In this document: one piece after another, positions 2,999 to 58,437 of the stretch
How the letters are laid out: each line of letters starts with the position of its first letter
Position numbering within the stretch: the first letter of the stretch is position 1
From: Caenorhabditis remanei
Taxonomy: Eukaryota; Nematoda; Chromadorea; Rhabditida; Rhabditidae
Length of the DNA stretch: 64,000 nucleotides
Direction of reading: 5' to 3'
Assembly (NCBI RefSeq): GCF_010183535.1
Contig: NC_071331.1
Location: forward strand, 7,316,001-7,380,000
Made by a program: the position numbers and the translations under genes
The notes under the pieces: generated by a model
What the model saw: the letters and a program-made list of their open reading frames with translations, nothing else
Database searches by the model: none
Told to the model about the DNA's origin: nothing

Positions 2999-3448
2999 CA
3001 CCAACATTCTTGTTGAAAACTTCAACTCAAATGTTGCTGTTCCAATCAGTTGATTAATTGAGTTGACCTTTAGTTTGATAATGATACAAGATCTTATTCT
3101 AAGATTTCAGATAAATACATAATCACTCTAGATGTCTTTAAGATTATGTGTCCTTTTCAAACTTCTGCCGTACAGCTTCACGAGCAACTACTTCGGTTTA
3201 TATGTCAAAACCTTTGCAACTTTTTGTAACTGAAATAAATGCATATAAACTGTGTTAACTGGCTCTGGTCCTCACAAGGTTGCATTGATAAAATAACAAT
3301 TTTTGTCCCCAGCTTTGAGAGTTGGCTCAAGTTTGAAACATTAAAAATATGTAGCAGTGTCAAAACATATTTTCAGTTTTTGTAGCTATTCTGCATTCTC
3401 TATGTTGCTTTCTGGTTGTTTTTGGCAAACTCCACTAGAATGTTATTG

Positions 3449-3456
3449 CAGTTTCA
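3449..3456 (+). promoter_or_regulatory. Candidate 21U-RNA core motif (CAGTTTCA variant)
   Basis: A CGGT matching YRNT places the candidate first base at T3496, 40 nt past the core. Confidence 0.4.
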
Positions 3457-5055
3457 ATCAGTCGATGAAATGATATGATCAATCGTGTTCACCGGTGGAT
3501 CCCTTACTTTTAATTTAAACCATTTTCCATGAAATTAACGATTTCATTGTGATTTTAGTGACTGTAAGTCTTGTCCACGGGCACTGATCCTCACAAAAAT
3601 ACCTTCTGTTAAACATCCAGAGTGACATAATAGAAGAACAGTTAATGCATTGCCAAAGCAAAAAAAAGTTGATAAATCACACAAAACTGTACATGTTGCT
3701 TCTAGATTGATTTGACAACTTCAACTCAAATTTTGCATTTTCAATCGACCGAAGATTGCTACGGTATGTACTACACCAGTTGCTTAGAACGACTAGCTAA
3801 AAAAATTTCAATCATCAAATACCAGACTTACATTCCTTGTCACCAGATTTTTTTCACTAGAAATTAATTCAATGTTGTATTAAACCATTAAGAAGTTAGG
3901 TTTATTGATGACGGCTTGCGGTTTCAAAGAAGTGTTAACTTGACAACAGTGGCGTATAGAAATTGCTAAATTGGCGAAACTAGGTAGCATCAGTTGTACT
4001 GTTCCCAGTCATTTCTATACGAAGAATTTTAACAATTTTAACAAAAACTAGATAAAAACATTCTTTTCTTTGATGTCAAATCATATGAGTCCTTTTGAGC
4101 ACCAACTTTTTGTCACTTGTCACTTGTTTTTGACATCTTCATCTCAAATATTGCTGTTCCAATCAGTTGCTAAATTGATTTGACCAATAGGAATTAGCTA
4201 TTAAAAGGTTTAGATTTTTCTAAGATTTCAAATAAATACATAAAACTCTAGATTTCTTTGATATTACGTTTTTTTATAAGCTTATTCAATTTTGTCTCAA
4301 ACTACTTCGGCGTATTAGTGAAAACCTTTGGCAACTATTTGTAACTGAAATAAATGTAAACTGTGTCAACTGGCTCTGGTCCTCACAATTCTGACAAGTA
4401 GATAACAGTTTTTATCTCAAGCTGCGAGAGTTTTCTCAAGTGTAAAACGTTAAAAATTGCAACCTTATTTGCAGTTTTTGTAGCTATTCTGCTTTTCTAT
4501 GTTTCTCCCTAGTTGTTTCTGGCAAACTCAACTGGAATGTTGCTGTTTCAACCAGTCAATAAATTGATATGATATGATTAACCCTGGATCCATAGCTTTA
4601 ACTCATAGTAGTATATATTCTATAAAATTAATAACTTCATTATCGTAGGGACTGTAAGACTTGTCCACTAGCACTGGTCCTCACAATTAACACATACTGT
4701 TGAACAGTATAAAATTTAGAGGGATATGATAGATAAGTAGTTATTTATTGCTCAAAACAATGATAAGTCACAGTGGCAAAACACTAATGCGTAGTTTTTT
4801 GTAGCTATTCTGCAACTGAGCATCTTGCTTCTATTATAGATTGCTTTGACAACTTAATCGAAATGTTGCATTTTTTCAACCGAAGAATTGCCAAAGTACC
4901 AGTTGATTAGAACGACTAACCAAAAAATGTTGAATCATCAAATCCCAGATTTATTTACTTTCCTTATTCCATCAGATTTTTCAATATAAATTAATTCAAC
5001 GTTTCATTGAACTAATTGAACTAACAAGAGATTAGAATAGTAATAATTGTTTTGT

Positions 5056-5063
5056 TGAAACAG
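5056..5063 (-). promoter_or_regulatory. Candidate 21U-RNA core motif CTGTTTCA
   Basis: Minus-strand core; the candidate first base is the complement of A5015, 41 nt past the core in a YRNT context. Confidence 0.5.
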
Positions 5064-5386
5064 GTTTTGACAATTTATATCATCCATTTGCAGTTTCAAA
5101 CAAATGTTAACTTTGCAACAGTGGAAATATGGATGTTGCTGAAATGGGGTTCATTGTGAAAATCACGTGTCGTCGTTTTACTGCTTGTTGGCATTTCTAT
5201 AGAGATAATTTGTTCTCGGAACTTGTAAAATATGGAAGAAAGCCATCATGTTGGCTCTGAGATGTCAGTATTTTGACAGTTTTAAGAAATTATATTTTTC
5301 AATGTCTCTTACGGCTCAATTCATTATAAGTTCTCCTGACAGCAGTTTCTCATTTTGTGTGCTTGTTTCTAGCAATTTGAACATTA

Positions 5387-5394
5387 CTGTTTCA
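5387..5394 (+). promoter_or_regulatory. Candidate 21U-RNA core motif CTGTTTCA
   Basis: TGAT (YRNT) puts the candidate first base at T5434, 40 nt past the core. Intergenic. Confidence 0.55.
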
Positions 5395-5535
5395 GCAAAA
5401 TAATAATAAGATTGAAATTTCCATAGCAATTGATAAGACTGTGTTTTATTGCCGAAAAATATCCTCAAAAGACATTGCCTAATGTTTCATCAAAAAGCTA
5501 AGACGTGTGGATATAAATGGCACTAGTCACCAGTG

Positions 5536-5602
5536 CATACTTGCAAAATATCGGCCCGGCCCTTCTCGGTCCGTCGGCCCGTCCCGGCCCGTTGTAAGTA
5601 TG
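5536..5602. mobile_element. Short GGCCC-rich element with CATACTTG ends
   Basis: A 67-bp unit begins CATACTTGCAA and ends TTGTAAGTATG, enclosing GGCCCGGCCC and CGTCCCGGCC stretches. A 477-bp relative with the same ends lies in an intron at 10616-11092. Confidence 0.55.
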
Positions 5603-5835: not shown

Positions 5836-5843
5836 CTGTTTCA
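5836..5843 (+). promoter_or_regulatory. Candidate 21U-RNA core motif CTGTTTCA
   Basis: CATT (YRNT) puts the candidate first base at T5882, 39 nt past the core. Confidence 0.55.
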
Positions 5844-7368
5844 GATTAGTTTTTTGTTCTGTTGACAAATATTGATTTCATTCGGATTGCACCTACTTGT
5901 CACTTCAAAGTATGAGCGTGTTTTTGAACATTTCTGTAATATTTTGTGCGGTTTCTAAGGTATTCAATGGTTTCTTCAACCCTAATTTTGCAGTTTCCGT
6001 TAGTTAATGAATTGAAGAGACGATTTATACGGTAATATGTAGCAAAATCCGATATATGAAAACAACTTTTTTTAAATCACTATTCTGCATGTTATCTTCA
6101 TGGTTTGTTTATGCCATTCTCATTTTGTTTGTTCAATTGTTTATAGAAATTTCAAGGAGAAAATGACTGTTCCAGTCAAGTAATGAACTAACAAAGTATG
6201 TACATGAGATTTTGATAATGTAATTGAGATAATTATTTCTTCAAAAAGCTTGCATGCTGATAAAAAATACTAATACACAGTAGAGTTTCCTAATTTCACA
6301 GTTTCGTCAAGTTATTTTCAACTGACAATAACGTAGCAATTAATGATGAGATAATGCACTAACTACAGCAATTGTCGTTCAATGAAAACTTGAAGCAATA
6401 AGAAAGAAACTACAGTTTAATCGTTTTCAACTGAACATTCATTTGCTCAGAATATTTGTGCAAGTCAAGAAACGGGTAGAATAGAAGAGCAATGTCTCTA
6501 ACAAGATTACAGTATTTTAATTGTTTCAAATTAGTTTTTTATTCCGTTGACAAAAATAGATTTGATTTTGATTGAACCTCAATTGTCACTCCAAAGTATG
6601 AGCGTATTTTGAGAATTTCTGCAAATTTTTGCGCTGTTTCTTAGGTATTCAATGGTTCCTGACAACCTAAACCCAAATTTTGCAGTTTCCGTTAGTTAAT
6701 GAATTGAAGAGATGATTCTGGTGTCAATACGGTTCTTTGAAAAGTACGTATTATATTATCAAAAGTCGGCATGCTATCTTCCTGTTTTGGTTATTCCCAC
6801 GACTGAAATAAGGACACAATAAAGTGCAAAACCTGATCATCTGAATCATGAGAAACTACTGTTTCGCCCATTTTGGTATTACAATATTGCAGTTTCATAG
6901 AAATGTTAACTTCTCTACTTGAACACCGTTTATGATGAGTCTAATTTGTTTTTCGGAAACTTTCCACTCTGTCAACAAAAAACTATTTTCTCAGAATTCA
7001 TTGAATAAGACACTTGAAAAACATCCTCAACGTTTTGTTTCAGCTTTCAAGAATTTAGAAATTAAGTGAAATTATCTCATCGTCGTCATAATTCATCATT
7101 GCCGTATAATCCAACTGAGAACTGGATTAATGTGTTTTTTCTGAATTAGCAAAACGAGCCGCCGTAGCAGTGTGATTAGTTATTCATCCGAAAATTATCG
7201 TTTTTTTTTCGTTTTTGTTTTGCAAAGTTACAGTTTCAAAATAGTCTTATTGAAAATGGAACAGAAGTAGTTGACAGTAGAAATTGAACAATTGTAAATG
7301 GCTAATCATAAAAATGATAAAAATATCCTGGTAAAATTATTTGTTGTAATCCATTCTTTTAGAAACTC

Positions 7369-8910
7369 GTGAATACTCTGGTTATAGAGTTTTTGTTGAG
7401 TTCAAAAGGCTTTAGTACTGAAAAAATTCAATTTTTTTCGAAACTTTTCCAAATTTTTTGGAAAAAAAACTTGACTGATTTTTTGTTGGTTCCAAAGATG
7501 TTTTTGAAAAAAATAGGGGTCACGGCCTACGTTTTACTAGGCCACGGCCTACTTTTTTGCAGGTCACGACCTATTTTTTCTAGGTCACGGCCTAATTTTT
7601 TGAGAAATATACATGAGAAAAAATATGAAGAATTTTCAGAAAAAAAAGTAGTGAAAAAGTCAAAAAATACAAATCCGGGCCGACCCCGAATTTTGCAAGT
7701 CTGCTAGTAAGTTGATTGGTCCCGAAGGGATTGTCATCTGAATAATGTTGCACATTTCTGAGAAACACCGTTGCCGTATCATTGAACAATCAATAGGCAT
7801 TATAAAACAGTATGTATTTTTTTTAACTGTTCCACTGATTTGAGTTAAATAACTATTTGGTTTTCATGTTAATTTCTCAGCACCATCAGTAATTGAATTT
7901 AGTTGTATAAAAGTGCTTAACCCTTTCCCCGCACACACTTCTCCAATTTTTTGTTTAAAAATCTTGAGGCTTGTCCTTCTTTTTACTGTTCCATCTCGTT
8001 TTATTAAGAGCTCCTAATATTTTCAATTTTGTTCGTATATCCTTTATCCAAATTTTCAATAAGGTTCATTCTGAGAAGTTACAGTCGAACACCTAATCTA
8101 TTGTACTGTTTCCTATTTTTGTTTTGGATAATGGGAAGTTTTGTGAAACATTGATACAACCAAATTGGTGAATTAGGGGCTAAATTCATGTTTTTAAAAA
8201 ACAGCAAGAAATACGAGAAAAAAATATCAAAATAATTCCCTCATCCACCAATCGAAACGAGATGTTGCCGAATTTCTGCATGGCCGTCACGCGGAGATTT
8301 TCGTTACCGCGATAACGGAGACTGGTAGATTTATAGTATGAAAAAAATAGTGTAGGCAGTTCCTTTTCTTCCAGTCTAATATTCTTTTATTCTCTTCTAC
8401 ATTGCCGGGTACATCAAATCAGCACCTCATTTCGATTCTCTTCGTCCTTCCGTTCTCAGCTAATAATACGTTGAAAAAAGGGGTCTTCACAATTGATGGG
8501 AATTAGATTGATCGTGATTTTCCCGGTTGGGGTAAACGCTGAATTAGAAATACAGATATCTGTCGATTGAAAATTGGTCAAATTATTTTCTGCACACTTA
8601 TTGCGGAAACGGTTGATCACTTTTCTGGCTGCTAAGTTGATTAGGTCTAAAAATAATAATCTATAATCAAAATCTTATCACTGGACCCAGCTTATCGAGT
8701 CTTACTGTAATATTTCTTTTGTTGATAAGCGCACTGAAAATAATTATCTACTTCTTTTTCGAGAGCGGGGAAAATGTTTTATCCTTTTATTTTGGTTGTG
8801 ATAAAACATACTTTCTTGTTTTCTCTGTTTCAATTAGTTGTCAATACAATTAGCCTTCTTTTATGCTATTACTACCCTTTCCGCCCTTCTTCTCATGAAT
8901 TTCTTTTTTC
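7369..8910. other. Intergenic tract upstream of the first MTA-like gene
   Basis: 7505-7600 holds four imperfect repeats of GGTCACGGCCTA, followed by a CGGGCCGACCCCG stretch and CTAG near 7705. That is weakly reminiscent of a Helitron 3' end but too short to claim. No gene is supportable. GTTTC-type cores occur at 8106 and 8825. Confidence 0.4.
8825..8832 (+). promoter_or_regulatory. Candidate 21U-RNA core motif CTGTTTCA
   Basis: TATT (YRNT) puts the candidate first base at T8870, 38 nt past the core, just upstream of the MTA-like gene. Confidence 0.45.
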
Positions 8911-17090: not shown

Positions 17091-17098
17091 CTGTTTCA
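17091..17098 (+). promoter_or_regulatory. Candidate 21U-RNA core motif CTGTTTCA
   Basis: CAAT (YRNT) puts the candidate first base at T17136, 38 nt past the core. Confidence 0.45.
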
Positions 17099-17605
17099 CT
17101 TTTTGTTAAAGAACTTTCTTTTTCTCAAAAAACAATTCGATTATTGATTTCATAGTTTCAAATTATTCTGTAATACTGTTTCTAGATAATATTTTTTTCG
17201 GATTAACTAGCCATTCATAATATTACGTGGAGCACTGAATTTTCCAATTACTTCCCATTTTAACAATTTTCTTAGAAAATCATTTGAATATTTGTAACCA
17301 AATTTACTTGAACAAAAAAACTGAAAAATACAAGGAAAACATATAACCGTATCATATATCACCTGTTAAGCAGAGAAAAGTGAAGGATTGACAAAGGAAC
17401 GAGGGGAAATGGGGAGGGGGGGGGGCCTAAAATAAATTTACGATATAAGGGGGGAAATTAGAAATGTTATAAGAAATGGAGCAGTTAAGGAGCGAGGACT
17501 AAACAGAGCAGCAGTGAAGATTGACGTCCGCTGATGATTGTTTTGGATTCCTTGAAAAAAGAAATATTTTAATTTCGATTACTATCAAAAACTTCATTTA
17601 CATTA

Positions 17606-18062: not shown

Positions 18063-20272
18063 TTACATCTTCCTCCTCTTGGCTGCCGGTTTTTTGACTT
18101 CCACATCAATCTTTAGGAACGACTTCAGAATCATTTCTCGTGACATCATGACTCTCACCGGAGAAGGCGCTCGAATCGGCACATTCTCCACATCCTCACA
18201 CTGACACTTTTTGAACAGAGGGAGTGGGTGTGGCTTGAGTTGCTCGACGATCTTTGCTCCAATTTCCATTTTCTCCGTCTCTGTCAGCTTGTTCCAGCGA
18301 CCGCGATGAGGGATGTCGATCATGTCCTCCTCCTCTTCTGTCAACTCGTTCCTCATCCATCTGTTGGTAATCTTCTCCTCTTGAATCTTTTCAAATTCAA
18401 CCATCTGGATACTCCTTCCTTCTGAGATTTCCATTTGATTCCAGTCTTGAATTTTCTGAAAATCCTCGTCATTAAACACAACGTTGCTTGCTGGACGAAT
18501 CTTTCCAGTGAGTTGTAGATATGTCTGACAAATCAAACACAGATCTCCTTGAGCCAGTGACATTCGGAGAGCCTTGGTGCAATTTGAGCACGCCCAGCGG
18601 GGAACGAAATTGAGGTTCATGCAGAGGGGGCCCCGATAGTTACATCCTTCAGTGCTGTCGGCTCCAAGGTAGAAATTTTTGAAATTGTGGTAGAACTTGG
18701 AGACCTCAGCGATATGATGGTTTTTCATCTGAAAATTATGATTAGTTGGTAAATGTTGTCTCTATATCAAGTTGAGGTAAACACCGTTTTTCACTATTTT
18801 AGAATTTTTTCAGTTTTTTTGCCTAGAAAAAATCAGCTTGAAAAATTTGTTCGGCTACTCAAATTTACTGATATTTTTGAGGTTTCACGCAGCAAAGCTT
18901 TGGGGTTCTAGGGCACCAAGCTCACTTTGAACAGATTTTTCTTGAGATTTAGACGTTTATGGTTTAAATGAACGTTATTTTCAGAGTCTTCATTAAATTT
19001 CCGAAAATTTGAGCGCGATATCGACATATTTCAGTGCAAATAGGAAGTTTTGGGTTTGGTGGCCTAGGAATGGAGGCTTTTAGGCTACCAAATCAAAACT
19101 ATTCAAAGTGGGTCAACATGGGGTTAAAAATTCTGGAAATTATTCGAGAATCTGAAAAATAGACGCATATTGCTTGGCCAAGAAATTGGGATTTTTAGGC
19201 CACCAACTCATTTTTTAACAGATTCTCCGTTTACCATTAGAGGGTTTACCAAAAAAACGCAATTTAACACAAATTTGACCATTCTTAGGGGCTTGTTACA
19301 ACAAAGTAAGGTCAAAATCGTCTTGTAAAAATGATTTTTTATTCCGCCTCCCGCTCTAGATCAAGATGTTCCCCAACAACTTACACTCTTCTCCTGAAGT
19401 TTCCGTCTCGACATGTTCTTATCCAACAGCAACTTCTCAAACACCTTGAACTGATTCTCTCCCAACGGCTTGAACTTTTGAGGCAGAGTCTTCAGATTCT
19501 GGTCGATTGTCTCCAGACTCTCTCCGAACGAGTATCCTCTTTTCATCAGATTCTGAAGTGCAGTCTCAAATGGAATCTGTCCTTCAAACTGCCTCCAAAC
19601 TGCTCTCCAATATCCGTTACGACAGAAATTGTAGTCAATATGCTTTTTTGGTGGTATCCACATTGCTTCCTCTCTATCAGGTCCAGTTTCGCGATTTTCC
19701 TCCATCTGTGGGATCTCAGCTTGGTGATTGGATCCAATTTGAATTACAGATGAACTTGCTTGGAGATATTTGGACGGGGTCTTTCCTGTGTCGACTCCAG
19801 AAGTGGAACCCATCTTGTTAAAAACTGGAACCATGTCGATTTTGAGTTTGTTCTTCTGACGCTCTACTTTTTCTGAATCCTTCTTTTTAAGAATAAAGGG
19901 GGTGTGGCCTAGTCCGATGGGAATCTTGGTTCCGCGTTCTGAAAAAAGTGAAGTTATTATAAAAATCATTTTAAAATAAAAAGTGCTAGAAAACTCACCA
20001 ACAACACCAAGACCATTATGGTAATTAGCCAATAACTCATCGTCATCCGAATTGATCTCCTTGTGCAGACGTCGACTTTTCCGATTCGGAGTCTTCTTTT
20101 GTTCCTTCGGTTGCTCCACCTCAACATCTCCAGAATCCGTCGAGCAATTCGATGGTGAAGTGTTGGTAGGTGTCAGGTTCCACGTGGTGTGGTTAGGCGA
20201 GGGGGAAAAGTTGTCGCAGTCATGTGGAGACGAGACCATTGGGGTACTTGGGTGGGTTAACTCGGAGAGCAT
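18063..20272 (-). CDS. ELM2-SANT-GATA-like nuclear protein (MTA/EGL-27-like), 497 aa
   Basis: Three exons on the minus strand: 20272-19999, 19938-19385, 18728-18063, giving 498 codons with agreeing phases. ELM2-like residues begin AMWIPP (about 183), then YWRAVWRQFEGQIPFETAL (about 200-218). A SANT-like segment ends HHIAEVSKFYHNFKN, split by a phase-0 intron at the place where the 8926-13437 paralog also has one. A GATA-like finger follows (C323-x2-C326...C340-x2-C343). The Pro/Gln-rich front half of the paralog is absent. The start is the ATG at 20272, after CAG and the leader GTAGCTAATC; frames upstream lack an ATG. The 60-bp intron 19939-19998 is in frame without stops, so its retention would add 20 residues. 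Confidence 0.8.
18823..19355. repeat. Remnant related to the hAT-like element of 32355-32926
   Basis: Within the 656-bp intron of the minus-strand MTA-like gene, the blocks TCAGCTTGAAAAATTTG and CAAATTTACTGATATTTTTG, and further on AATTTAACACAAATTTGACC and ATTCCGCCTCCCG, match the core of the hAT-like element in the METTL24-like gene. No terminal repeats remain. Confidence 0.5.
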
Positions 20273-20374
20273 ATCGATAGTTTGATTAGCTACCTGGAAG
20301 TATATTTTTTGGGGGGAAGAAAGAGGAACAATGGGAGATTTCCAAGGATCCCGCCCCGGGGAAGGCCGGTTCAA

Positions 20375-35254: not shown

Positions 35255-35285
35255 GCCTTTTGATGCATATATTCGGTTTGGATTA

Positions 35286-43120: not shown

Positions 43121-44625
43121 GAGCTAATTTTTTTTTGAATAAATCAATACTTTAGTGCTGAAAAGTGGACATGAAATTGAAAACCTTTGAATAATATTCG
43201 CATTAATGACGTTCCCACTGTATCCTTCTGCTTCAAAATTACTACATGTGAAATTGGAAACTGTAAAATTTATAGTAATGATCTTGCCATTGCTCATACA
43301 TAGATATGGGAATAACATGAATAGGAAAGCGATTCAGATGTATAAAACGTAAGGATAGGTTATTGTTGTAAGAAATACAACGCGAGCAACTAATAAAACC
43401 GATCAATCAATTGAAAAGTTTTTGAAACATCAATTTAGTTGTTTAGAAGAATTCGTGTTTCTCTCATCAGTGATAATTGCATTTAATTTACATCTAATGA
43501 TTTCTTTTTTATATATTTATTTTGTGCTGAAAAGTGGAGTTAATGACCTTCCCACTGTATCCTTCTGCTTCGAAATTACTACATGTGAAACTGGAAACTG
43601 TAAAATTTCTAGTAATGCTCTTGCCATTGCTCATGTATAGAAATGGAAATAACATACATGAATATGAAAAGATTCAGATGTATTGAAACAAACACTTGTA
43701 CAATTATTGTTGTCCAAAATACGAAATTAAAATGAAACATCTGTAACAGTGATTTTAGGAACATTTTGTCCTATTAATGATGGAACAACTTGACGAGCAA
43801 CTAATAAAACCCACCAATCAGTAGAAAAGTTTTTGAAACAGTAATTTAGTCGTTCTCGAAGAATTAGATACCCTGGCATTAGCCACATTTTAATATTTTG
43901 TGAAAGAGTAAATCGTGCTGAAAAAAGTTCATTTCTTCAGGTTGCAAATAACCTTCATCTGTGTATTGCTGATCTCAGTCGATTGTGTAATCGCAACATA
44001 TGGGAGACCTGAGACAGTAAAAATTAGCAAGTATGTTTACGTAATGTTAAAGTAATCATAAAAGAAATGAAGAACATCAACTCGAAACTCAAATGATGAT
44101 AAAAAGGAACACTTGAAACATGAAAACTGAAATAGTGATTGATAGATGATGTGAAATCTTTTAAGACTGCGGTCCACCGAAATGCCCATGAAAAGTGTCT
44201 ATATTTCTCTGAGTCTCTTAATTTCGCACGCAATATTCTTTGATTTCGGTAGTGCGCGGTTGTAAGAAGCGTGCCAAGCTAATAGCCAATAGCTCTCATT
44301 TCGCTAACCTGTTTGGAATTGAACCATTAAGAAATGTATTTACCAAAAAGATAAATTACCTACTTTGTATCTGAAATTAGAAAAATTATGGCTCGGAAGT
44401 TGACACCAAGGTTTTCACGGTTTTCGATATGATTTAGGTTTAGATTGAATTTAAATATATGTTCGTCTATTATCTCAAAGTAATTTGGATATTTTATTTA
44501 TTTCAAGAATATTATATGATGTCATTTTTGTTTCTTCCGTTTAAAAACTAAATCAATAAATGTCCATTTTAATATTCTATGGTTTAACAGATTCCCATTA
44601 CAACAAAAAAGTAAAAACATTTTGT
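43121..44625. repeat. Receptor 3' flank with internal duplication
   Basis: 43190-43320 recurs at 43540-43690 (GACGTTCCCACTGTATCCTT versus GACCTTCCCACTGTATCCTT; TGTGAAA.TGGAAACTGTAAA) and again at 53460-53640 behind a receptor pseudogene. A diverged TTAGC/GCGCGGTTGTAAGAAG MITE lies at 44150-44285. No gene is seen. Confidence 0.55.
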
Positions 44626-44628
44626 CGT

Positions 44629-44662
44629 GGTGAGACCCATTTGATCTACCTACCCGCCAAAA
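44629..44662 (+). promoter_or_regulatory. Shared CUT-family promoter motif (gene at 44797)
   Basis: GTGGTGAGACCCATTTGATC followed by TACCTACCCGCC, about 150 bp upstream of the start. The same block precedes each CUT-like gene in the window. Confidence 0.5.
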
Positions 44663-44796
44663 CTGTTCATCTCATCATTTTGATATCCTGGCCATTTCTT
44701 CCATTTTCCATTGATTTTGTTTGCAATTTTTGTGCTTTGTCGGCTAATTTTCACTTGTTCACGACATTTCAGTAGTTTTCAGAAGAGATTCATAAA

Positions 44797-46482
44797 ATGA
44801 ATCCTCCACCCGTCGAAAATCAACCGGAAAAATTGGAAGACAACAAACCGAATCCGCCTCAAAATCCAATAAATCAACCTCCTGTTCCCCAACAATCTGC
44901 ACCGAGATATCCTCAATCAACTTCTAATGAGCAGGTTCCGACATTGAGTTCCCAACAAGGAGGGGACATCGATTTATCCAGATTGCAACGTGAGTTCACA
45001 AAGTTAGTTTCTGCATTGTGAAATTTAAATTCAGAAGACAACCGTCCAAGTGATGATGACGGAGCTAAGGAACAAGCATTAAAGGAGTGGTGGGAGACCT
45101 GTGCGAATCCGGAAAATTTCGCAACTCCACAATTGAGTGCTGAAGGGCAAATAGTACAGTCGAATGTGCAACGTAAGTTCTCAACGGCTTCTAATTGAAA
45201 TCCCAATTTTTTTTTTAGAAAACTTGGCGCCGCCTGGCTATCAGTATCATCTAAGTGCTCCGATTTCGATTCATAGTGGTGTTGCTGGACCAATGAGATC
45301 TCCGGCAGGAGGTGGGATGGGCCATCTTCCGGGACGTGAGTTTGCAGTAAACCACGATGTCAGGTATAACAATAAAGTGTCAATTTTCAGAAAGATCACC
45401 AAGTCCATACTCCAGACCAAGTCATCAGTCAAGAGGCGAACCAACAACTGAAGGAATGCATATGATGCCTCAAAATGCGTCAAATCATTCATCTCAATTG
45501 CTAGCGACTATTGGACAACGAGCCAACACGACTACTATGGAAATCCTGTTGGTTCTCATCGAGCCGATCTCCAGCAAACTCTTTCGTTACCTCAACTCTA
45601 CATGAATTCCTGCAACACCGATATTTCCAGCTGGGGATTCCGTTCGCAGCCTATGTATTGGGACTCTCCGGGAATGGGTGATCAATTTAAAGGGGATACA
45701 CACCGTAAGTTCTGAAACTTCAAACAAAAAACATTCACACAATAAAGAACTTCCAGATGATCCAATGATACAAACCAGTCGTTTGAACGATCCACAGAAT
45801 TCAGAAATTCTTGGATTTCGGGTATGCAATTGGCATGAAAAAAAGATGGATATTTACCCAATTATTTTCTCAGAACCAGCCGATATACCCTCCACTCCCT
45901 AAATTTGACTCGACGACTCAGCGCCAGATGTCATCGAATTCTGAAGAGCAGATCTCCGGATTACCAGTCAAAGACTATCTGAATGCAACCTACCCTAGAC
46001 CGTCATCATCCTATGCCAAGAACCGCCCGATACGCATTGCGCGAAATGAAAGACTAATGCAAGAGCGTTCCGAAGAATGTGACCGTTTTATCGAGAAGTT
46101 GGATAAACCTCTTCCAATGGGAGTAACTAAAAATACAGTAAAACTTCCTGAACTATATCAGAAATGGGCGGATATACCAAAGCATGCTTATAGGAAACTC
46201 AATCTTCGTGATACCATTGGTGTAAACAACGGAGATTTGGTAGTAGCAGTTCTCAAGGAAGCCGTTAATAAGGATGAAGAGATGGACGCTGTGTGCAGAC
46301 GATTGGTCAACTTTTTGAAGGATGATGAGAGAGACAAAATGTTGGAATATTCGGTACAGATGAAACAGAAATGGTACGAAAAACTATTGAGTTTTAATTG
46401 AAAATTGTTTCAACATTTCAGGGTAAAAATTAAGAAAACGATTGGCAGCAGTAGTAGGAAAGGATCGGAATCATCGAAATAA
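44797..46482 (+). pseudogene. CUT-family gene, homeodomain-less, frameshifted copy
   Basis: Exons correspond one to one with the intact copy at 61294-62976: 44797-44989, 45035-45172, 45219-45335, 45391-45704, 45757-45821, 45874-46373, 46422-46482. Exon 4 is 314 nt here against 315 there: a G is missing at CAT(G)GCATCT (near 45487), so the frame ends at 45605 after about 220 codons. A truncated protein could still be made. The Pro/Gln-rich front (MNPPPVENQPEK) and the C-terminal CUT-like unit (FIEKLDKPLP...LRDTIGVNNGDL...RRLVNFLK...KQKW) are otherwise preserved. Exons 6-7 are essentially identical to the intact copy although exons 1-4 differ at many sites, suggesting gene conversion. Confidence 0.7.
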
Positions 46483-47022
46483 CTAAATTTTTTGTTTATT
46501 GTGTAATTTATTTGCTGGTTGCTATATTTTTCGGATATTGATATTGTTTTATTTTGTTAATTAGTTTGTAAATAATTGACTTTATCAATTCTATGAATTT
46601 CGTTTAATTTAATTATTTTCATGTACTGTCTAACTGAAAGTAGCTTCGGATATTCTAGATATTTCAAGGAAGTTTTTTTGCCCGGCTTCAAGATGTTAGC
46701 CAATTTTTTTCAACTTCTCACCGAAAATGTGAACATTTTTGATGATTTTTCAGAATTTTTTCGAATTCTGAACCATAGTCGAAAATGCGACTTTTTCGCT
46801 AAAAAATTTCAGAAGTTTCAGAAATTTTTGTACAGCAGCCCATCGAGAAGATTCTTTTTTTATCTGATTAAAAAACACAGTTATTCTCTGACAATCCCAA
46901 TTTCCGGTCATACGTTTTGGCTAGAGAATGCATACTACACATCTTTCAATCATCGATCATTTTTTCATCTCGACTTTCTTCTCACAAATTCTCTGAAACC
47001 GGAATCATTCAGACACTCAATC

Positions 47023-48354
47023 ATGGAGTTCGGTCTCTACCAGTCCATCCACACATCTCTCTCGGTCTTCGGTGTTGGAATCAATATCTTCTTGTTGTAT
47101 CTGGCGTTGACAAAGTCACCGAAAATCATGCGTCCATGTTCTGCACTTATCACCAACAAGTCGTTGACAGATATCATGTCATCTCTGGCTAATTTGTTTG
47201 TCATGCAGAGGTAAGCGTTGAGAAATTTGCAACGGAAACGATTGATGAATCAATAAATTAACCCGCTTTCAATTTTAGAAGGAAGTGTAACATTTTTACT
47301 TATTTCTTTGAAGATCAGAAAAACATCAAATATTGACTGTTTCAACACCTCCAAATACTCCACCAACTTTTCAAAAATTTGATTCCATTTTGTTTTTCGT
47401 AACATTTTCCAGAATCATCACCGACGGCTCCTCTGTCACGATCATCCCACTGGTCCCTGCACTTCCATCGGCCCAACCGCTTGTTATGCCGGTCACATGT
47501 TCATGGGAAGCTTTTTGGAGCACAACCTTATCTGGCTCATTGCTTGTTATCTATTCCGTTACTACATCCTTTATGTCCGTGACCCATCAATCAAAAGTAT
47601 CATTTTTGCGGCGTTAGTGGTTTACACCCCAAGTTTTATTCATATGGCGGTTTGGATTAAGCTATTCGATTCGGGGCCCAAAGACACGATGATGAATTCT
47701 ACTGGATCTGACAACTCATCACTATCAAAGTCTTCTGAAATGATACTGACTGGCTCTGCAGTCTACTGGAGTTCCCTTGTAGTTTTTGCCCAACTTGTAA
47801 TCACTGCTATTCTTGTTGTGATTGCTTATACATGGATCCGGAATGTGTTGATTAACTTTATTTTGAGTATGGGAGCAACACTTTCAAAAGATGTCAAGAT
47901 TATCAATAAGCAGTTGGTCAAGGTGAGTTTGGAGCTTGTTGGACTCTAGGGGAAGAAACAAAATTAGAAAAAAAACGAGTTATTCTAAAGCTAAGGTTTT
48001 GAATTGAAACAGTAGATCCCGTTTCCTAACTTCTATAAATTTTTAACAATTTTTTAAAACTAAAGATATCATCTTTAGATCCTCACGTTCCAAGTGTGCA
48101 TTCCCATCTGGATCTTCCTCGGAGTCTTCTTCTTCCTTGCCATGTACACCCAGAATGCTCAACCAGACATTCTACAGTACTCCATCACTATTTCCTTCAT
48201 GTTGGCACCTGTCATCTCCCCATTTGCCTACATATTCTTTGTCCCTCACTACTGGAATTTCTGTATCGGAAAGAAATATGTGACACCGAGTACCACTTCT
48301 ATCTGTGGAAGCTCTTCGAATTGTGGAAGTGTTGAGAAGAAATCGATGACATGA
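47023..48354 (+). pseudogene. srd-type receptor copy with 1-bp deletion
   Basis: Exons 47023-47210, 47413-47922 and 48079-48354 match the intact receptor at 41652-43120, but exon 2 reads ATCATCCCACTGG where the intact copy has ATCATTCCCACTGG. The one-base loss near 47448 shifts the frame. The copy at 52486 carries the same deletion, so it probably predates the duplication of these two. The extracellular segment has three additional codons (NSSLSKSSEM). Downstream 42601-like sequence includes a minus-strand 21U core at 48005. Confidence 0.75.
47337..47344 (+). promoter_or_regulatory. Candidate 21U-RNA core motif CTGTTTCA
   Basis: In receptor intron 1; TGAT puts the candidate first base at T47383, 39 nt away. 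Paralogous cores are at 41941 and 52797. Confidence 0.45.
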
Positions 48355-49168
48355 GAGCTAATTTTATTTGAATAAAACAATACTTTGTATATTTATTTTG
48401 TTCTGAAAAGTGGACATGAAGTGGACATTTTTTGTTGTTATTTCTATTTGGCCGTATACGCGGGTTGAAACATTTTTAGAGCTTCAGAATAATTATTAAA
48501 TTAACATTACCATCGTATAAGTGCACGTGACTCGCGACATATGGGATACTTGGAACAGTGTAATTTGTGAGTATCAGTTCAAGTGATGTCAAGCTATAAT
48601 AGTTATGAATGAGATCAAAACAATACAAAAGGAATACTTGAAACATGGAAAGCGGGATGAGTGATTGATGTGAGATATCATGAAAGTATTCAAAAACTAA
48701 TAAAGTAAAATATTTTCAATTCCTCTAAACCAACTCCAATCGTAATTCTGCTTATTATATCCGAAGATGAAATGACATATGTCTTTATGGATATCAAGAT
48801 ACCTTGTGTTACTGTTTTATTCAGTTGGAAGATTTTTTCTCTGGCTTGACCTACCCACTTCTTTTTTTAATTATCGAAGAAGTCGTGGTGAGACCAATTT
48901 GATCTACCTACCCGCCAAAACCATTTCTTTCCATTTCATGAAATTTTCATGAATTTTTTTCAAAATTAAAAAAAAGCTTGCCTCTTTTTTTGAAACGAAA
49001 ATTTTTTTCGGTCGGTGCGAGACCCGTTTGATCTACCCGCCCGCTTTTTTCACCCGTTTTTCTGTTTTCACTAGTTCGTAGCCTCATTTTTCATTTTTTT
49101 TTTGTCGTTTCTCTTCAGTTTTTCCATTTTTTCGAAAAAAAATTAACTGGAGCTGATTTTCAGAAGAG
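48355..49168. promoter_or_regulatory. Spacer and promoter region of the four-unit CUT gene
   Basis: It contains two copies of the shared CUT-family promoter motif: GTGGTGAGACCAATTTGATC with TACCTACCCGCC (48887-48918) and GTGCGAGACCCGTTTGATCT with ACCCGCCCGC (49014-49043). A remnant TTGACCTACCCACTTC lies at 48848. No other gene is seen. Confidence 0.45.
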
Positions 49169-51060
49169 ATGTCTGACAGCAATCCTCCAGCGGAACCAAA
49201 CAGAAATAGAAAACGGAAGAGCGATTCGTCTTCAGATACACCGTCTTCATCTTCTCGTCCTCCACAACCTGTACCGATTTCAAGACGTTCTTCAACCCAA
49301 TCAACATCGTCCATCACTGTTGAAAACGTCATTAGAACGTTGAGTAAACCCCTTGAAGGAAGAAATCTCAATGTGAACAATATTGCTGAAAAAGTTCTGA
49401 AATTCACAGTTGAATATGGCGAAAAAGTTGCTGCTTCGATTGGGAAAACTTGGTCAACGGTTCGAACGGAAATGGAGTATCGCATTCATCCATTCACTCA
49501 TGCGAATCGACGCAACGAAATGAGCGAGAAAGAACAAATTCCGTACCTGCGATTGTCAAATTGGTTCGAGTACTATGAGGAAAGTAAAGATAAAGAAGCG
49601 GTTCTAGATTTGCACAAGAAACTGTATGAAAGATGGTAAAGCCTAATCTGTAGATGTTCTTACGACAATTTTTGAAATTTCAGGGAAGTATTGGCGCTGT
49701 TAGACAGTAATCCTCCGACGGAACCAAACAGGAATAGAAAACGGAAGAGCGATTCTTCAAATACACCGTCTTCATCTTCTCGTCCTCCACAACCTGTACC
49801 GATCTCAAGCGGTTCTTCCACCCAATCATCATCATCCATCACTGTTGAAGACATCATTAGAACGTTGAGTAAACCCCTTGAAGGAAGAAATCTCAATGCG
49901 AACAATATTGCTGATAAAGTTCTGAAATTCCCAGATGAATATGGCGAAAAAGTTGCTGCATCGATTGAGAAAAATTGGTCAAATGTTCGAAGGGAAATGA
50001 ATCGTTGCATTCATTCTGGGGGTCAATACGAGAAAATGCCGATGAGAAAACAAATGGTGTACTTGCGATTGTTCAATTGGTTCGAAAATTATGAGGAAAG
50101 TCAAGTGAAAGAAGCGGTTCTTGATTTGCACAAGGAATTGGAGAAGAGATGGTACACTCTATTCTATGGATTTTCTTAATAAAAATTATGAAATTTCAGG
50201 AGAAAAATGGATAAAGAATTAGAAGAAAGCAAAAAAAGTAAAGAGGAAATTGAAGTCACAAAAAGGAAAAAGGCTGTTGATCGCATCATCAAAAAATTGA
50301 GTACTCGCCTTGAAGGAAGAGATCTCAATGAGGATAAGATTGCTGAACAAGTAAAGGAATTCACAGAGGAATATGGCTTAAAAGTTGCTGCATCAATTGG
50401 GCAAAATTGGGACATAGTTCGAGAGGAAATGAATTCTCGCTTACCGGTTCGAATCAAAGATATGGATGAGGAAAAACAAAGGATGTACATGCGAATGTTC
50501 AATTGGTTGGATTACTATGAGGATAGTGATGTGAAAGAAGAAGTTTTAAACTTGCATCTGGAACTGAAAGAGAGATGGTAAATTTATTGATTTTCTAATT
50601 TAAGAAATTGTGAAATTTCAGGTTAGACATAAAACACAAATGGGAGTGGATAGAGAATCTCACAGTTGATGATATTCTCGAAGAACTGAGGAAACCTCTT
50701 GGAGATAGAACACTCGATGTTAAAGATGTCATTTTACGAGCCAATGAATTCATTGAAAGATATAAAAGACATGACAATCCAACAACACAAATTGCTGTTA
50801 TGTTTGGTGAAAGTTGGGCAACTTTTACACGAAAAAGAAATATATATCTCGTGGAGCAAACATACGAGGAAATGAGTTTAGACCTCCAAGAATTTTACCT
50901 GCAATTGTTCAATTGGTTGGAATTCTATAAGGAAGATTGGCAGAGAGCAGGGGTTATAAACTGTATGGATCTTCATAAAATTCAAACCACCTGTGGAGAG
51001 AATGGTACTGTTTTTTTTAATTTTCTCACGAAAAGTTTTGAATTTTCAGTTCCGAAGTAG
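49169..51060 (+). CDS. Serial CUT-like domain protein with four units, 568 aa
   Basis: Five exons: 49169-49635, 49684-50151, 50200-50577, 50622-51004, 51050-51060 (569 codons). Each of exons 1-4 encodes one unit: I..LSKPLEGR.LN.N.IAEKV..F..EYG.KVAASIG..W..VR.EM...(Y/M)LRLFNWF.YYE.S..KE.VL.LH..L.ERW. The pattern matches a divergent CUT domain (DT..I..V...G......LG.S....VS..L....W.....E.Y.RM..WL). Exons 1 and 2 also repeat the basic Ser/Pro-rich lead-in (PNRNRKRKSDSS). Internal introns split the Trp codon TG/G, so exons are phase-symmetric and can duplicate freely. Unit 4 is most diverged and the last 20 codons are out of register with the related gene at 58438. There is no homeodomain. The ATG follows TTTTCAGAAGAG, a likely trans-splice acceptor. 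Presumed nuclear DNA-binding. Confidence 0.75.
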
Positions 51061-52340: not shown

Positions 52341-52485
52341 CAATTATTCTCTGAAAATCTTAATTTCCGGTCACGGCTAGAAAGTACATAACAAACAATT
52401 TGTTTCAATCATATAACATGAATTCATTCTCACCTCTATACTATTTCAATCTCTGAAACAGGAATCACAATTCCAGAGTACAACG

Positions 52486-53396
52486 ATGGAGTTCGGCCTC
52501 TACCAGGCCATCCACACATTCCTCTCAGTCTTCGGTGTTGGAATCAATATCTTTCTGTTGTACCTGGCGCTGACAAAGTCACCGAAAATCATGCGTCCAT
52601 GTTCTGCACTTATCACCAACAAGTCGTTGACAGATATCATGTCATCACTGGCTAATTTATTTGTCATGCAGAGGTAAGTGTTGAGAAATTTGTGACGTTT
52701 CGAAGTCTCTTCCATCAATGTATTCAAACCGATATCAATTTCAGAATCAAGTGAAACATTTTTACTTATTGGTGAAAAAATTTCAAAAATGATTGACTGT
52801 TTCATTGCCTCCAAATACTCTACCAAGTTTTCCAAAGTTTAATTTCATCTTTTAGAATTTAAAAAAAAACAGCACGTCTGTCACGATCATCCCACTGGTC
52901 CCTGCACTTCCATCGGCCCAACTGTTTGCTATGCCGGTCACATGTTCCTAGGAAGCTTCTTGGAGCACAACCTCATCTGGCTCATTGCTTGTTATCTATT
53001 CCGTTACTACATCCTTTACGTCCGTGATTTATCAATCAAAAGTATCATTTTTGCGGCTTTAGTAAATACCGTTTCATAATCCCTACAATTAAAAATTCAT
53101 TTTCAAAAAACTAATGTTTAGATCTTATGAAATTCCTCACGTTCCAAGTGTGCATTCCCATTTGGATCTTCCTCGGAGTCTTCTTCTTCCTTGCCATGTA
53201 CACCCAGAATGCTCAACCAGACATTCTACAGTACTCCATCACTATTTCCTTCATGTTGGCACCTGTCATCTCTCCATTTGCCTACATCTTCTTTGTCCCT
53301 CACTACTGGAATCTCTGTATCGGAAAGAAATATGTGATACCGAGTACCACTTCTATCTGGAAGCTCGTCGAATTGTGGAAGTGTTGAGAAGAAATC
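52486..53396 (+). pseudogene. srd-type receptor copy with internal deletion
   Basis: Exon 1 (52486-52673) is intact. The exon 2 acceptor and first codons are replaced by an A-run (52860-52871). The same one-base deletion as in 47023-48354 is present (ATCATCCCACTGG), and after ATTTTTGCGGCTTTAGT the sequence jumps into intron 2 (53063), losing the region for helices 4-5. Exon 3 starts late (near 53139) and lacks about 10 bp near 53358. Confidence 0.85.
52797..52804 (+). promoter_or_regulatory. Candidate 21U-RNA core motif CTGTTTCA
   Basis: TAAT puts the candidate first base at T52843, 39 nt past the core; it lies in relict receptor intron 1. Confidence 0.45.
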
Positions 53397-55141: not shown

Positions 55142-55607
55142 GTAGAGTCCCGAAGAACCTATGCAGATGCGCTCTATTGCCAAGGAGGTTACACATTGTC
55201 GTAGCGGTGAACTTTAGAAATTTCTGTACATACCAGAGTTGCATGGAAGTGAAAATTTCTTATCCGGAAGTCGGAAGTCGGAAGTCGGAAGTGAATTTTC
55301 TTATCCGGAAGTCGGAAGTCGGAAGTCGGAAGTCGGAAGCGATTTTCCTTATCCGGAAGTCGGAAGTAGGAAGTCGGAAGTGAATTTTCTTATCCGGAAG
55401 TCGGAAGTCGGAAGTCGGAATGGAAAAAATGCCCGGAAGTCGGAAGTCGGAAGTCGGAAGTCGGAATTCCATGCAACTCTGGTACATACCGTGTGAACAT
55501 TAGAATTTATTCAACGTATGCACAGAAATTTCTAAAGTTCACCGCTACGACAATGTGTAACCTCCTTGGCAATAGAGCGCATCTGCATAGGTTTTTCGGG
55601 ACTCTAC
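55142..55607. mobile_element. Foldback element interrupted by a hAT-like insertion
   Basis: The left arm 55142-55231 (GTAGAGTCCCGAAGAACC ... GTGAACTTTAGAAATTTCTG) returns inverted at 55517-55607. The 55234-55481 element and its target duplication sit at the inner end of the left arm, a nested insertion. Confidence 0.7.
55234..55481. mobile_element. hAT-like MITE with GGAAGTC minisatellite, 8-bp TSD
   Basis: Ends CAGAGTTGCATGGAA and its inverted copy; GTACATAC stands directly on both sides (55226-55233, 55482-55489). The inside is almost entirely tandem GGAAGTC with four TTCTTATCC or TTCCTTATCC interruptions. The CAGAGTTG ends match the element at 32355-32926 while the heptad differs (GGAAGTC versus TTCCGCC), so these are two subfamilies of one hAT-like group. 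Confidence 0.85.
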
Positions 55608-56630
55608 ATGTGAGACTCTTAAGAAAACTTAACGCAAAAAACTAGCCGATCTAAACTAGCCCAATCACTCTGATTATAAATATACGTAAGAGGTTGGAAT
55701 CTATGCAGTAGCTTAACTGCTTCGATTGGGTAATCGCAATATATGGGAGACCTGAGACAGTAATAATTTGCAAGTATCAGTTTATGTGATGTCGAAGTAA
55801 TCACGAAAGAAAAGACAAACAGCCTTTCAGCATCTCGAAACTCAAATGATGATAAAACAATAATCTTGAAACATGAAAATTGAAGTTGGGATTGGTGAAT
55901 AGAAGATCTGACCTCTTATAAGCGCATTTATAACAAAAAATTCTTAGATTTTCACATCTCCACTTCCGAGGAACTATGATATTTTCAAAAGTCTCATCCA
56001 TCAATACCATGCCAATTCCACTAAATTATCAATCTGAGAAAAAAAACAATCATTCTTATATATAAAAGACAATTGGGCGTTGTCTGAGGCGATGTCCGCA
56101 ACGGTTTTGGAAAGAGAAGAGAAACTGAGCCAGCGGGCAAAACCGAACTGGCGTGCTTTGGACAACGACCGCCGCTTTAAACTACTCGGCCATGCGGGCA
56201 CATTCGAAAGTCAATGACCACGTGAATCAAGAGAGACCAGCCGGCTCAACCGCCGAAGGCGGGGGAGACAGGCTGGTATTTACATAAAACAGTACAAGTT
56301 TTTATTAGCTTGGCACAGTTCTTACAACTGCGCTCCACCGAATTGCCCTTGAAAAATGTCTCTTTTTTTCTCTCAGTCTCTCAATTTTGCATGCAGTTTT
56401 CTTCGGTTTCGGTAGAGCGTGGTTGTAAGAAACGTGCAGTGCTGATACCAATCTCATTTTGCCGACCTGTTCAAAATTGAGTCTCTCCAAATACTCGAAG
56501 ATGAATTGAAGCATGTTTTCATTGTATTCAACAAACCTTGTGATTGAAACAGGGAATCATTTAAGAAAAATCTAAGTTAAGAAACTTTTCTTTCTGTTTT
56601 GAATTCCCAATTTCTGCTCATCAAATAAAG
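55608..56630. other. Intergenic with a GC-richer segment and MITE copy
   Basis: 56041-56270 is unusually GC-rich for the window (ATATATAAAAGACAATTGGG opening; CCGCCGAAGGCGG hairpin near 56250) and may be part of a Helitron-like or other element; the identity is not resolved. 56305-56450 is a copy of the TTAGC/AACTGCGCTCCACCGAA MITE family with both arms recognisable. Confidence 0.4.
56545..56552 (-). promoter_or_regulatory. Candidate 21U-RNA core motif CTGTTTCA
   Basis: Candidate first base opposite A56505, 40 nt away in a YRNT context. Confidence 0.5.
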
Positions 56631-56711
56631 ATGCTTTATTATTTCCCGAAAGTGTTTCTACTGATTGCCTGTCAGAAAAGGATTCCTAGACCTACCACCT
56701 CAAAAATCGTG

Positions 56712-56740
56712 TCGAGACCATTTGACCTACCCTCTCCCGC
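56712..56740 (+). promoter_or_regulatory. Shared CUT-family promoter motif, diverged (gene at 56909)
   Basis: GTCGAGACCATTTGACCTAC followed by CCTCTCCCGC, 170 bp upstream of the ONECUT-like start. This is the most diverged instance of the motif. Confidence 0.45.
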
Positions 56741-56809
56741 TGAAACCCAACTCTCCTGCAGATTTTCTCGAATAATGTCATTCTTTTGTGTTTCTCATCC
56801 TTTTCTTGA

Positions 56810-56817
56810 CTGTTTCA
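56810..56817 (+). promoter_or_regulatory. Candidate 21U-RNA core motif CTGTTTCA
   Basis: TGAT puts the candidate first base at T56856, 39 nt past the core, between the CUT promoter motif and the ONECUT-like ATG. Confidence 0.45.
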
Positions 56818-56908
56818 TCAATTTTTTTTATTTTTAGTTCTGATTTTAGTTCTGATTTTCCAAATTTGTTAGTTGGTCTCCACTTAATTTTTCAATTTTT
56901 AGAGAATA

Positions 56909-57904
56909 ATGTCCATCGATGACGCCTCCCCATTCTCTGTAAAATGGACACCAGCGATAAGTTACGAAGAGATGTTGGCACGGAGCACCCCTCGCCCGGA
57001 CACTAGATTCGACCACTATCAACAACATCTTCACGATGGAACGACCGAAAAACTGAAACCGATTCAAATGATACCAGAGGAAGACAAACCGCTGAAGGTT
57101 GTGTTTGCAAAAAAGGAAACTCAGATATATTCGATACGTGAGTGCAGACGCGCTCCATCGATAAACGTTTATTCCATATTCAGATGCACCCCCACCACAA
57201 CTCCTTGTACAGTACCCTCAGTTCCCGGAGCGCAGTCCGTCACCTGCTCCGGAAGCTTCCGTCTCGGGTCTCCATCCTCCTACTCCTCCCGATCTTCCTG
57301 CAGCACGTTCGCCCGTTGCTGACCCGAACGACATCACTCCTGAAATGGCAATCAAGATATTGGATAGACCACTCCGCGATGAATCGAACCCACCGGACAC
57401 CCGGGAAATTGTGAATGCTTTCAATCGATGGAGAATGGCGAATGGGAACAACGCGGCTCACATCGCCACACATATCCTCGGAGTGAATAAGACAACGGTC
57501 CGGGATTACTGTGTCACTCCTCAGCCATGGAATGAGTTGAAATATGAGAAAATGATTTATTTGCGAATGCACAATTGGACGAGACTCTCTTCAGAAGCAA
57601 GGGAACGCATATGGGAAATGGATTTGGCCAAGGAGAGGTAATCGCGCTCTATTCATGATCAACATCTTGTTTTAACAATTTCAGAGCCAAGAATGGTTCC
57701 CCTGAAAAACCCAAAGCCATCATAACCCCCTTGCCGGATGATGTAAAAGAAATGATTTTGAATGAAATGCGACAAGCGCCGGACCAAGTATTGAATGAAC
57801 CATATCTGAGACAATGGGCAATTGAGAAGGGATTTAATTACCCTCCAATTAAGAATTTCCATCATTATATGAGGTCTCGTATCAGAGAGGGATTTCCGAT
57901 CTGA
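56909..57904 (+). CDS. ONECUT-like transcription factor: one CUT domain plus divergent homeodomain, 300 aa
   Basis: Three exons: 56909-57137, 57184-57637, 57685-57904 (301 codons). Residues 77-125 are Pro-rich. The CUT domain spans about 146-210: DTREIVNAFNRW, HIATHILGVNKTTVRDY, then TPQPWNELKYEKMIYLRMHNW, matching the CUT signature around LG.S...VSD and P.PW..L.......RM..W. The homeodomain spans about 239-296: helix 3 is PPIKNFHHYMRSRIRE where ONECUT proteins have STVSNFFMNARRRS, so the key Asn (N285) and basic residues are partly kept. The intron between CUT and homeodomain is phase 2 at the same place where the serial CUT genes split their Trp codon, showing common descent. Probably a sequence-specific nuclear factor. 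The start follows TTTTTAGAGAATA. Confidence 0.8.
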
Positions 57905-58437
57905 AATAATTTGTCATTTATTCTAATCTATGTAATATCATTCTTTGTTAATTTATCACGATTTTGATTATTTATTGGTAATAAAGTTTGATTTAATTTT
58001 AATTGGTCGGCTTTTTATTATCACTGTTTCATTCTGTTGGAAGATATATTTTCTCTGATACCATTTGACCTACCCACTTCTTTATTTAATTATCGAAGAA
58101 GTCGTGGTGAGACCAATTTGATCTACCTACCCGCCAAAATCATTTCTTTCCATTTCATGAAATTTTCATCTTTCCTTCTTTTTCATGATTTTTTTCAAAA
58201 TTAAAAAAAATGCTTCCCTCTTTTTTTGAAACGAAAATGTTTGTCGGTCGGTGCGAGACCCGTTTGATCTACCCGCCCGCTTTTTTCACTTGTTTTTTTT
58301 GTTTTGACTAGTTCGTAGTCTCTAATTTCTTCTCTCTTTTTCGTCGTTTTTCTATTTATGATTTTTTGTGTTTTATCACTTATTTTTCTTCTTTTTTTCA
58401 GTAATTTCCAAAAAAATCTGTTACGTTTTCAGAAGAG
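57905..58437. promoter_or_regulatory. Promoter region of the serial CUT gene at 58438
   Basis: It resembles 48800-49168 upstream of the other serial CUT gene. Motif copies: ACCATTTGACCTACCCAC (58061), GTGGTGAGACCAATTTGATC with TACCTACCCGCC (58103-58134) and GTGCGAGACCCGTTTGATCT with ACCCGCCCGC (58251-58280). A CTGTTTCA core at 58024 lacks a YRNT at the expected distance. Confidence 0.5.

Follow-up and report, generated by a model that had tools for sequence, protein, structure and literature searches.

A putative type I 21U-RNA gene cluster and its right edge on chromosome IV of Caenorhabditis remanei

Piwi-interacting RNAs (piRNAs) are small RNAs that guard the germline. We analysed a stretch of 64,000 nucleotides of chromosome IV (C4) of Caenorhabditis remanei PX506 (C4:7,316,001-7,380,000, hereafter the window) and conclude with high confidence, from the arrangement of its sequence motifs, that it forms the right-hand end of a cluster of type I 21U-RNA (piRNA) genes of moderate density. 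C. elegans and C. briggsae have established type I 21U-RNA genes with the CTGTTTCA core and the same initiator (PMC9683057, PMC6436959). According to a review, the small RNAs of C. remanei have been profiled, and its expressed 21U-RNAs are 2-3 times more numerous than those of C. elegans (PMC6468775). In PX506, C4 has 25,790,997 bases (PMC10461856).

Several sequence features of type I 21U-RNA genes are found together here: the core in AT-rich flanks on both strands, a YRNT initiator at a fixed distance, clustering on chromosome IV and, between paralogs, a promoter that is conserved next to a predicted 21U sequence that changes fast. They support the proposal of an earlier sequence-only reading that this is a piRNA-gene domain. 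By analogy with C. elegans and C. briggsae, which serve as models for the factors, transcription, processing and target silencing (PMC9683057, PMC6436959), each locus would be its own tiny gene. The CTGTTTCA-like core in AT-rich DNA would recruit the piRNA promoter complex (SNPC-4, PRDE-1, TOFU-4 and TOFU-5), RNA polymerase II would initiate at the YR, two bases upstream of the T, and the short capped precursor would be trimmed to a 21-nucleotide (nt) RNA beginning with that T, which would load PRG-1 and silence its targets.

Number and spacing of the cores

The window contains 37 exact CTGTTTCA cores (23 on the + strand, 14 on the - strand), 36 of which lie in the interval 3000-58031. The sequence-only reading had counted 33 by hand, so that its claim of an enrichment stands and its count does not. 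It gave a chance expectation of 2-3. In the window, the mean for 840 permutations of the letters of CTGTTTCA, among which CTGTTTCA ranks first, is 2.67 (standard deviation 2.8), and an order-1 Markov model gives 2.28 + 2.07 = 4.35. An order-6 model predicts 17.5 + 12.9, a value without meaning here, since the frequencies of the sub-words are driven by the motif itself. Genome-wide, CTGTTTCA occurs 19,000 times in 130,466,896 bases, that is 9.3 times per 64 kb, and the reversed-core control 6,781 times. The window is enriched about 4-fold over the genome mean and 8-14-fold over the composition expectation; an equal density over the genome, named beforehand as the observation that would speak against piRNA genes, is not what we see.

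The distance to the initiator is also constrained. Of the 37 cores, 20 have the T of a YRNT 39-40 nt downstream (mean of 75 shifted control offsets 5.7, maximum 14), 26 have it at 38-40 nt (mean 8.6, maximum 17) and 28 at 38-42 nt (mean 13.3, maximum 23), in line with the earlier figures of about 20 of 33 at exactly 39 or 40 nt, where chance would give about 5, and 27 of 33 at 38-42 nt. In the whole 160-kb cluster, a YRNT is found at 38-40 nt in 77 of 113 cores (control 27.2). In the 102 non-redundant cores among 114 cluster cores, T has a frequency of 0.52-0.63 at the positions 2-4 bases upstream, and the sequence 9-14 bases downstream is AT-rich.

Clustering on chromosome IV and the edge of the domain

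The density of exact cores is 0.71 per kb at C4:7.216-7.376 Mb, and it remains high through the 100 kb left of the window. On the other side the density drops near 7.38 Mb: C4:7.384-7.480 Mb holds 14 exact cores in 96 kb (0.15 per kb), which is the genome mean. Within the window, the part of the putative domain delimited by the first and the last exact core before the edge is 4543-58031 (no strand assigned), and the right edge is placed in 58032-64000 (no strand assigned), where there is one exact core, probably exonic. A Pfam scan of 10 of the 132 open reading frames (ORFs) of at least 100 amino acids right of the edge gave no clear reason for its position; the matches were to CUT/homeodomain, F-box-associated, srz chemoreceptor and PIF1 helicase families.

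The one-mismatch forms CTGTTTCG, CGGTTTCA, CTGTTCCA, CCGTTTCA, ATGTTTCA and CAGTTTCA are 1.8-2.4 times denser left than right of this edge, and they share the spacing excess (for CGGTTTCA, 24 of 35 against 7.5). A promoter matrix, applied with a minimum score of 14, identifies 78 sites in the window; the next 64 kb have 17, and ten order-3 Markov sequences average 7.5. The core and flank weights of this matrix were derived solely from the 77 exact cores in the left 100 kb. The initiator and distance weights were fixed on the whole cluster, including the window, and the test is therefore not fully held out. We estimate that the window holds about 60-70 predicted piRNA loci.

The chromosomal bias is strong. 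Promoter-like patterns were chosen from the cluster profile; some of their matches are tandem copies and none lies inside the window. Two strict patterns have 27 of 27 and 34 of 35 matches on C4 (61 of 62 together), and the reversed-core control has 16 of 78, in line with C4 being 20% of the genome; the clustering on chromosome IV that the sequence-only reading gave for C. elegans is found here too. A looser pattern has 47 of 62 matches on C4. Among the 15 others, C1 has 2, and 2 more lie on small contigs and are identical in sequence to C4 matches: the promoter-like matches at C56:38049 and C137:6482 share 28 bases with C4 matches at 3.21 and 3.51 Mb, which suggests that the two contigs may belong to C4 as unplaced or allelic pieces. 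The 61 strict C4 matches range from 1.0 to 23.9 Mb and leave the interval 12.98-18.49 Mb empty; the looser pattern has a single match there, at 14.9 Mb.

Two other 40-kb stretches of C4, near 23.6 and 19.6 Mb, contain 256 and 121 exact cores, respectively, with 75 at d = 39 and 57 at d = 40 in the former (background 19.4; d is the distance from core to T) and 36 and 34 in the latter (background 10.0). The stretch with 256 cores is C4:23,630,001-23,670,000, which has one core per 156 bp on average and a spacing peak at 39-40. Since these stretches are 5-11 times denser than the window, the latter is a moderate component of a system that extends along the chromosome, and its description as a dense array is a relative one.

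It may be that this part of the cluster is partly decayed, with promoters that are recognisable, many of them being silent. The moderate density would be explained, as would the many one-mismatch cores that still have the spacing, and the core copy at 36455, which has no YRNT at 38-40. Yet exact cores show the spacing about as often in the window (26 of 37) as in the denser arrays, where the counts summed over 38-40, in which one core can count at two distances, are 163 (256 cores) and 87 (121 cores). We consider partial decay a possibility, but an unlikely one.

Several observations weigh against the assignment of the window to a piRNA cluster. Self-repeats cover 40% of it and contain 21 of the 37 cores, so that duplicates inflate the count. 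No YRNT is present at 38-40 in 11 of the 37 exact cores, 2 of which look exonic. The content in G and C, which we tested as a downstream low-melting signal for pausing or termination, is 0.349 over the 21-mer and 0.331 over the next 20 nt (77 loci), a weak step. Last, in two subsamples of cores with G/C-rich downstream sequence, no more than 14 of 31 and 9 of 56 are on C4; these seem to be mostly non-promoter cores, and their lower C4 bias means that the bare core has a genome-wide background, to which many exact cores off C4 belong.

Repeats, splice sites and other short RNAs

The proportion of cores in self-repeats could mean that the motif has merely spread as a passenger of local duplications or transposons, without promoter function, and the sequence-only reading had noticed that some cores are in duplicated copies. 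However, the removal of near copies leaves 34 of the 37 cores, with the spacing peak retained (13 of 34 at d = 39, background 2.8), and between copies the core is 0.90-0.94 identical, compared to 0.81-0.85 for permuted 8-mers. Since the core outconserves matched 8-mers and the spacing peak survives, we rejected this explanation, which is very improbable.

Another hypothesis is that the enrichment reflects the use of CTGTTTCAG as a nematode 3' splice acceptor or as a coding word. A G follows the core in 36 of 113 cluster cores, and two window cores lie within an ORF. On the contrary, a YRNT is present at 38-40 in 26 of the 36 G-followed cores (background 7.8), which is as frequent as in A-followed cores (29 of 41, background 10.0), and this peak weighs against the splice acceptor at most loci; moreover, splice sites would occur across all chromosomes and the strict patterns do not. 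This reading was also rejected, and we give it hardly any credence.

That the promoters are of the type bound by the small nuclear RNA-activating protein complex (SNAPc) and produce other short RNAs, such as small nuclear (snRNA) or spliced-leader RNA, has in its favour the proposal that the Ruby motif derives from an snRNA promoter element (PMC6436959), but it is practically negligible, given that the window has no Rfam family at gathering score and no transfer RNA detected by ARAGORN (bacterial code), and that the 26 predicted 21-mers described below are, by eye, mutually unlike except for duplicates.

Divergence of the predicted 21-mer between paralogs

We compared the identity of the predicted 21-mer with that of its flanks between duplicated copies (differences are 21-mer minus flanks); several statistics were examined before one was fixed, and the families, which were joined by position, may not be fully independent. 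In 28 exact-core families, the identity is 0.720 in the 21-mer, 0.840 and 0.817 in the flanks and 0.903 in the core, and the difference is -0.111 (95% confidence interval, CI, -0.165 to -0.059; 20 of 28 negative). For families of permuted 8-mers it is -0.011 (CI -0.036 to 0.010; 49 of 122 negative).

The set was enlarged with two extra C4 stretches, using the exact and seven one-mismatch cores and aligning the loci on the predicted T. Conservation is again lowest in the predicted 21-mer (identity 0.78, compared to about 0.85 for the flanks) and highest in the core. The difference for YRNT-bearing loci is -0.077 (CI -0.104 to -0.050; 113 families, 71 negative and 33 positive), or -0.053 with substitutions alone (CI -0.074 to -0.032), and for exact cores with a YRNT -0.063 (CI -0.096 to -0.033; 71 families). 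There is no clear effect for cores without a YRNT (-0.016, CI -0.048 to 0.016; 77 families) nor for permuted 8-mers with one (-0.015, CI -0.040 to 0.008; 121 families). When identity is computed in 173 segments of 21 nt between -88 and +104, the minimum is in the segment that begins at T+1, and the value of the one at T lies within 0.008 of this minimum. After global realignment the difference is -0.071 (CI -0.100 to -0.044; 110 families), and it has the same value when both copies have core and YRNT (62 families).

Other results count against a specific effect on the 21-mer. Among families of one-mismatch cores, for which the difference is -0.075 (CI -0.120 to -0.031), only 33 of 60 are negative. 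Exact cores without a YRNT lean the same way (-0.028, CI -0.070 to 0.015, 38 families; -0.025 with substitutions alone, CI -0.051 to 0.000). After global realignment, families in which the other copy has no core or no YRNT give -0.075 (59 families). Considered by themselves, the two denser arrays show a smaller effect (-0.032, CI -0.061 to -0.007; 57 families). The upstream bins from -70 to -57 are also somewhat low (0.81-0.82), and the end bins of the realignment (+84 to +97) are below the 21-mer (0.74 and 0.69), which is probably an end effect.

These data suggest, tentatively, that after the duplication of a piRNA gene the predicted 21-mer changes faster than the surrounding DNA while the promoter is held constant, the cause being either selection on the guide sequence or raised mutation. 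We lean against this proposal, since the effect is equal after the loss of core or YRNT and the exact cores without a YRNT lean alike; for the former reason, selection on working genes is not supported over a mutational cause. The transition/transversion ratio is 0.90 in the 21-mer and 0.83-1.05 in three flanks, with no clear difference, and the similarity of the substitution types therefore does not separate mutation from selection.

Were the proposal correct, worms would generate new piRNAs by duplication and a subsequent accelerated change of the 21-mer, through selection for new guide sequences or through raised mutation at a short transcribed or paused stretch. The 21U sequences are described as being under little selective pressure, and the origin of new piRNA genes is posed as a question (PMC9683057); if the 21-mer truly outpaces its own flanks, neutral drift alone is an insufficient explanation.

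Predicted loci in the window

We define a predicted piRNA gene as an exact core and a 21U sequence that starts at the T of a YRNT 38-40 nt past the core; there are 26 such exact-core loci. In the left part of the window, the predicted genes on the + strand are 5387-5454 (core 5387-5394, 21U 5434-5454, d = 40), 5836-5902 (core 5836-5843, 21U 5882-5902, d = 39), 8825-8890 (core 8825-8832, 21U 8870-8890, d = 38, matrix score 22.0) and 17091-17156 (core 17091-17098, 21U 17136-17156), followed by three copies of one gene at 21994-22060 (core 21994-22001, 21U 22040-22060), 22477-22543 (core 22477-22484, 21U 22523-22543) and 23439-23505 (core 23439-23446, 21U 23485-23505). Then come 23927-23993 (core 23986-23993, 21U 23927-23947) and 30779-30846 (core 30839-30846, 21U 30779-30799) on the - strand, and 31023-31088 (core 31023-31030, 21U 31068-31088) and 33783-33849 (core 33783-33790, 21U 33829-33849) on the + strand.

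Two predicted genes are back to back at 35188-35254 (-; core 35247-35254, 21U 35188-35208) and 35286-35352 (+; core 35286-35293, 21U 35332-35352), and 35446-35513 (+; core 35446-35453, 21U 35493-35513, matrix score 23.3) lies next to them. The promoter pair 35247-35293 has been duplicated jointly as 36412-36462. In the second copy, the - strand gene is predicted at 36353-36419 (core 36412-36419, 21U 36353-36373), and the copy of the core at 35286, at 36455-36462 (+), keeps its promoter and has no YRNT at 38-40, the downstream sequence having diverged.

Further right are 40667-40732 (+; core 40667-40674, 21U 40712-40732), 40834-40901 (+; core 40834-40841, 21U 40881-40901), 41940-42005 (+; core 41940-41947, 21U 41985-42005), beside or in an srd chemoreceptor gene, 42549-42616 (-; core 42609-42616, 21U 42549-42569), 42706-42772 (-; core 42765-42772, 21U 42706-42726), 43776-43841 (-; core 43834-43841, 21U 43776-43796, matrix score 22.8), 47337-47403 (+; core 47337-47344, 21U 47383-47403, matrix score 23.9), 52395-52461 (-; core 52454-52461, 21U 52395-52415), 52797-52863 (+; core 52797-52804, 21U 52843-52863, matrix score 23.7), in the third srd-bearing repeat copy, 56485-56552 (-; core 56545-56552, 21U 56485-56505) and 56810-56876 (+; core 56810-56817, 21U 56856-56876).

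The statement of the sequence-only reading that all cores are intronic or intergenic does not hold for the exact core 46361-46368 (-), which has no YRNT at 38-40 and lies within a conserved ORF (45787-46398, +). Its duplicate 62855-62862 (-), beyond the interval of that reading, also lies in an ORF (62206-62892, +) and has no YRNT at 38-40 either, and both cores are probably background rather than piRNA genes.

Neighbouring genes and repeats

In a Pfam scan of 20 of the 71 window ORFs of at least 100 amino acids, srd chemoreceptor matches above the cut-off were found in the ORFs 41,851-42,552, 46,597-47,211 and 47,383-47,946, an ELM2 match at 19,364-20,389 (-) and a CUT domain at 57,165-57,638 (+). 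The core at 47,337 is between two srd matches, so that at least one locus appears intronic. The third srd-bearing repeat copy, at 52.3-53.6 kb, is deduced from DNA similarity.

The ORF with the exonic core belongs to a 2.2-kb direct duplicate (44388-46592 and 60894-63085, 95.3% identical), and its copies have 4 differences in 612 nt against 87 across the whole duplicate; it has no Pfam match. Copies of a gene family with a shared basic, serine-rich start (49157-51057, 58405-60048 and L011:2554-3075) span the domain edge, and have no Pfam match above the cut-off among the scanned ORFs.

The 19-bp tandem repeat found at 36986-37052 is present again, in inverted orientation, at 39953-40019, and the matrix matches at 37128 (+) and 39877 (-) bear an identical 21-mer; 36986-40019 looks like a 3-kb element whose inverted ends carry a piRNA-like promoter. 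Tandem arrays at 32370-32897 and 55245-55466 have a 41-bp period built of 7-bp units. Right of the edge, a long ORF with a PIF1-like helicase match (L017:6465-7637, -), adjoined by two more long ORFs, is perhaps part of a Helitron-type transposon.

Comparison with known systems

The system is of a known kind. What is new is a member on a chromosome-scale assembly, and the divergence of the 21-mer is a candidate novelty. A putative piRNA domain and one of its edges are now placed on the chromosome-scale genome of an outcrossing worm, which allows the edge and the density to be set against maps of chromatin and recombination. In a partial literature search, which covered few subscription papers and does not establish absence from print, we found no PX506 map of C. 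remanei clusters and no test that shows the 21-mer to diverge faster than its flanks.

Like the type I clusters of C. elegans, the C. remanei loci are on chromosome IV and on both strands, and combine the CTGTTTCA core with a YRNT about 40 nt downstream. Unlike C. elegans, where two clusters are described at 4.75-7.5 and 13.5-17.5 Mb (PMC9683057), the strict matches of C. remanei extend from 1.0 to 23.9 Mb, with very dense stretches near 19.6 and 23.6 Mb. The clusters of C. briggsae, on chromosomes I and IV (PMC9683057), share the core, the YR initiator and poorly conserved 21-mers, but no equivalent of the chromosome I cluster was seen in the C. remanei subsamples, in which 1 of 62 strict matches is off C4. 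At least one locus of the window is apparently intronic, as are Pristionchus-type piRNAs (PMC6436959); however, the P-type loci of Pristionchus are described as dispersed in introns of active genes, whereas the promoter-like matches of C. remanei, as in the C-type organisation, for which piRNA domains in repressive H3K27me3 chromatin are characteristic, cluster on one chromosome.

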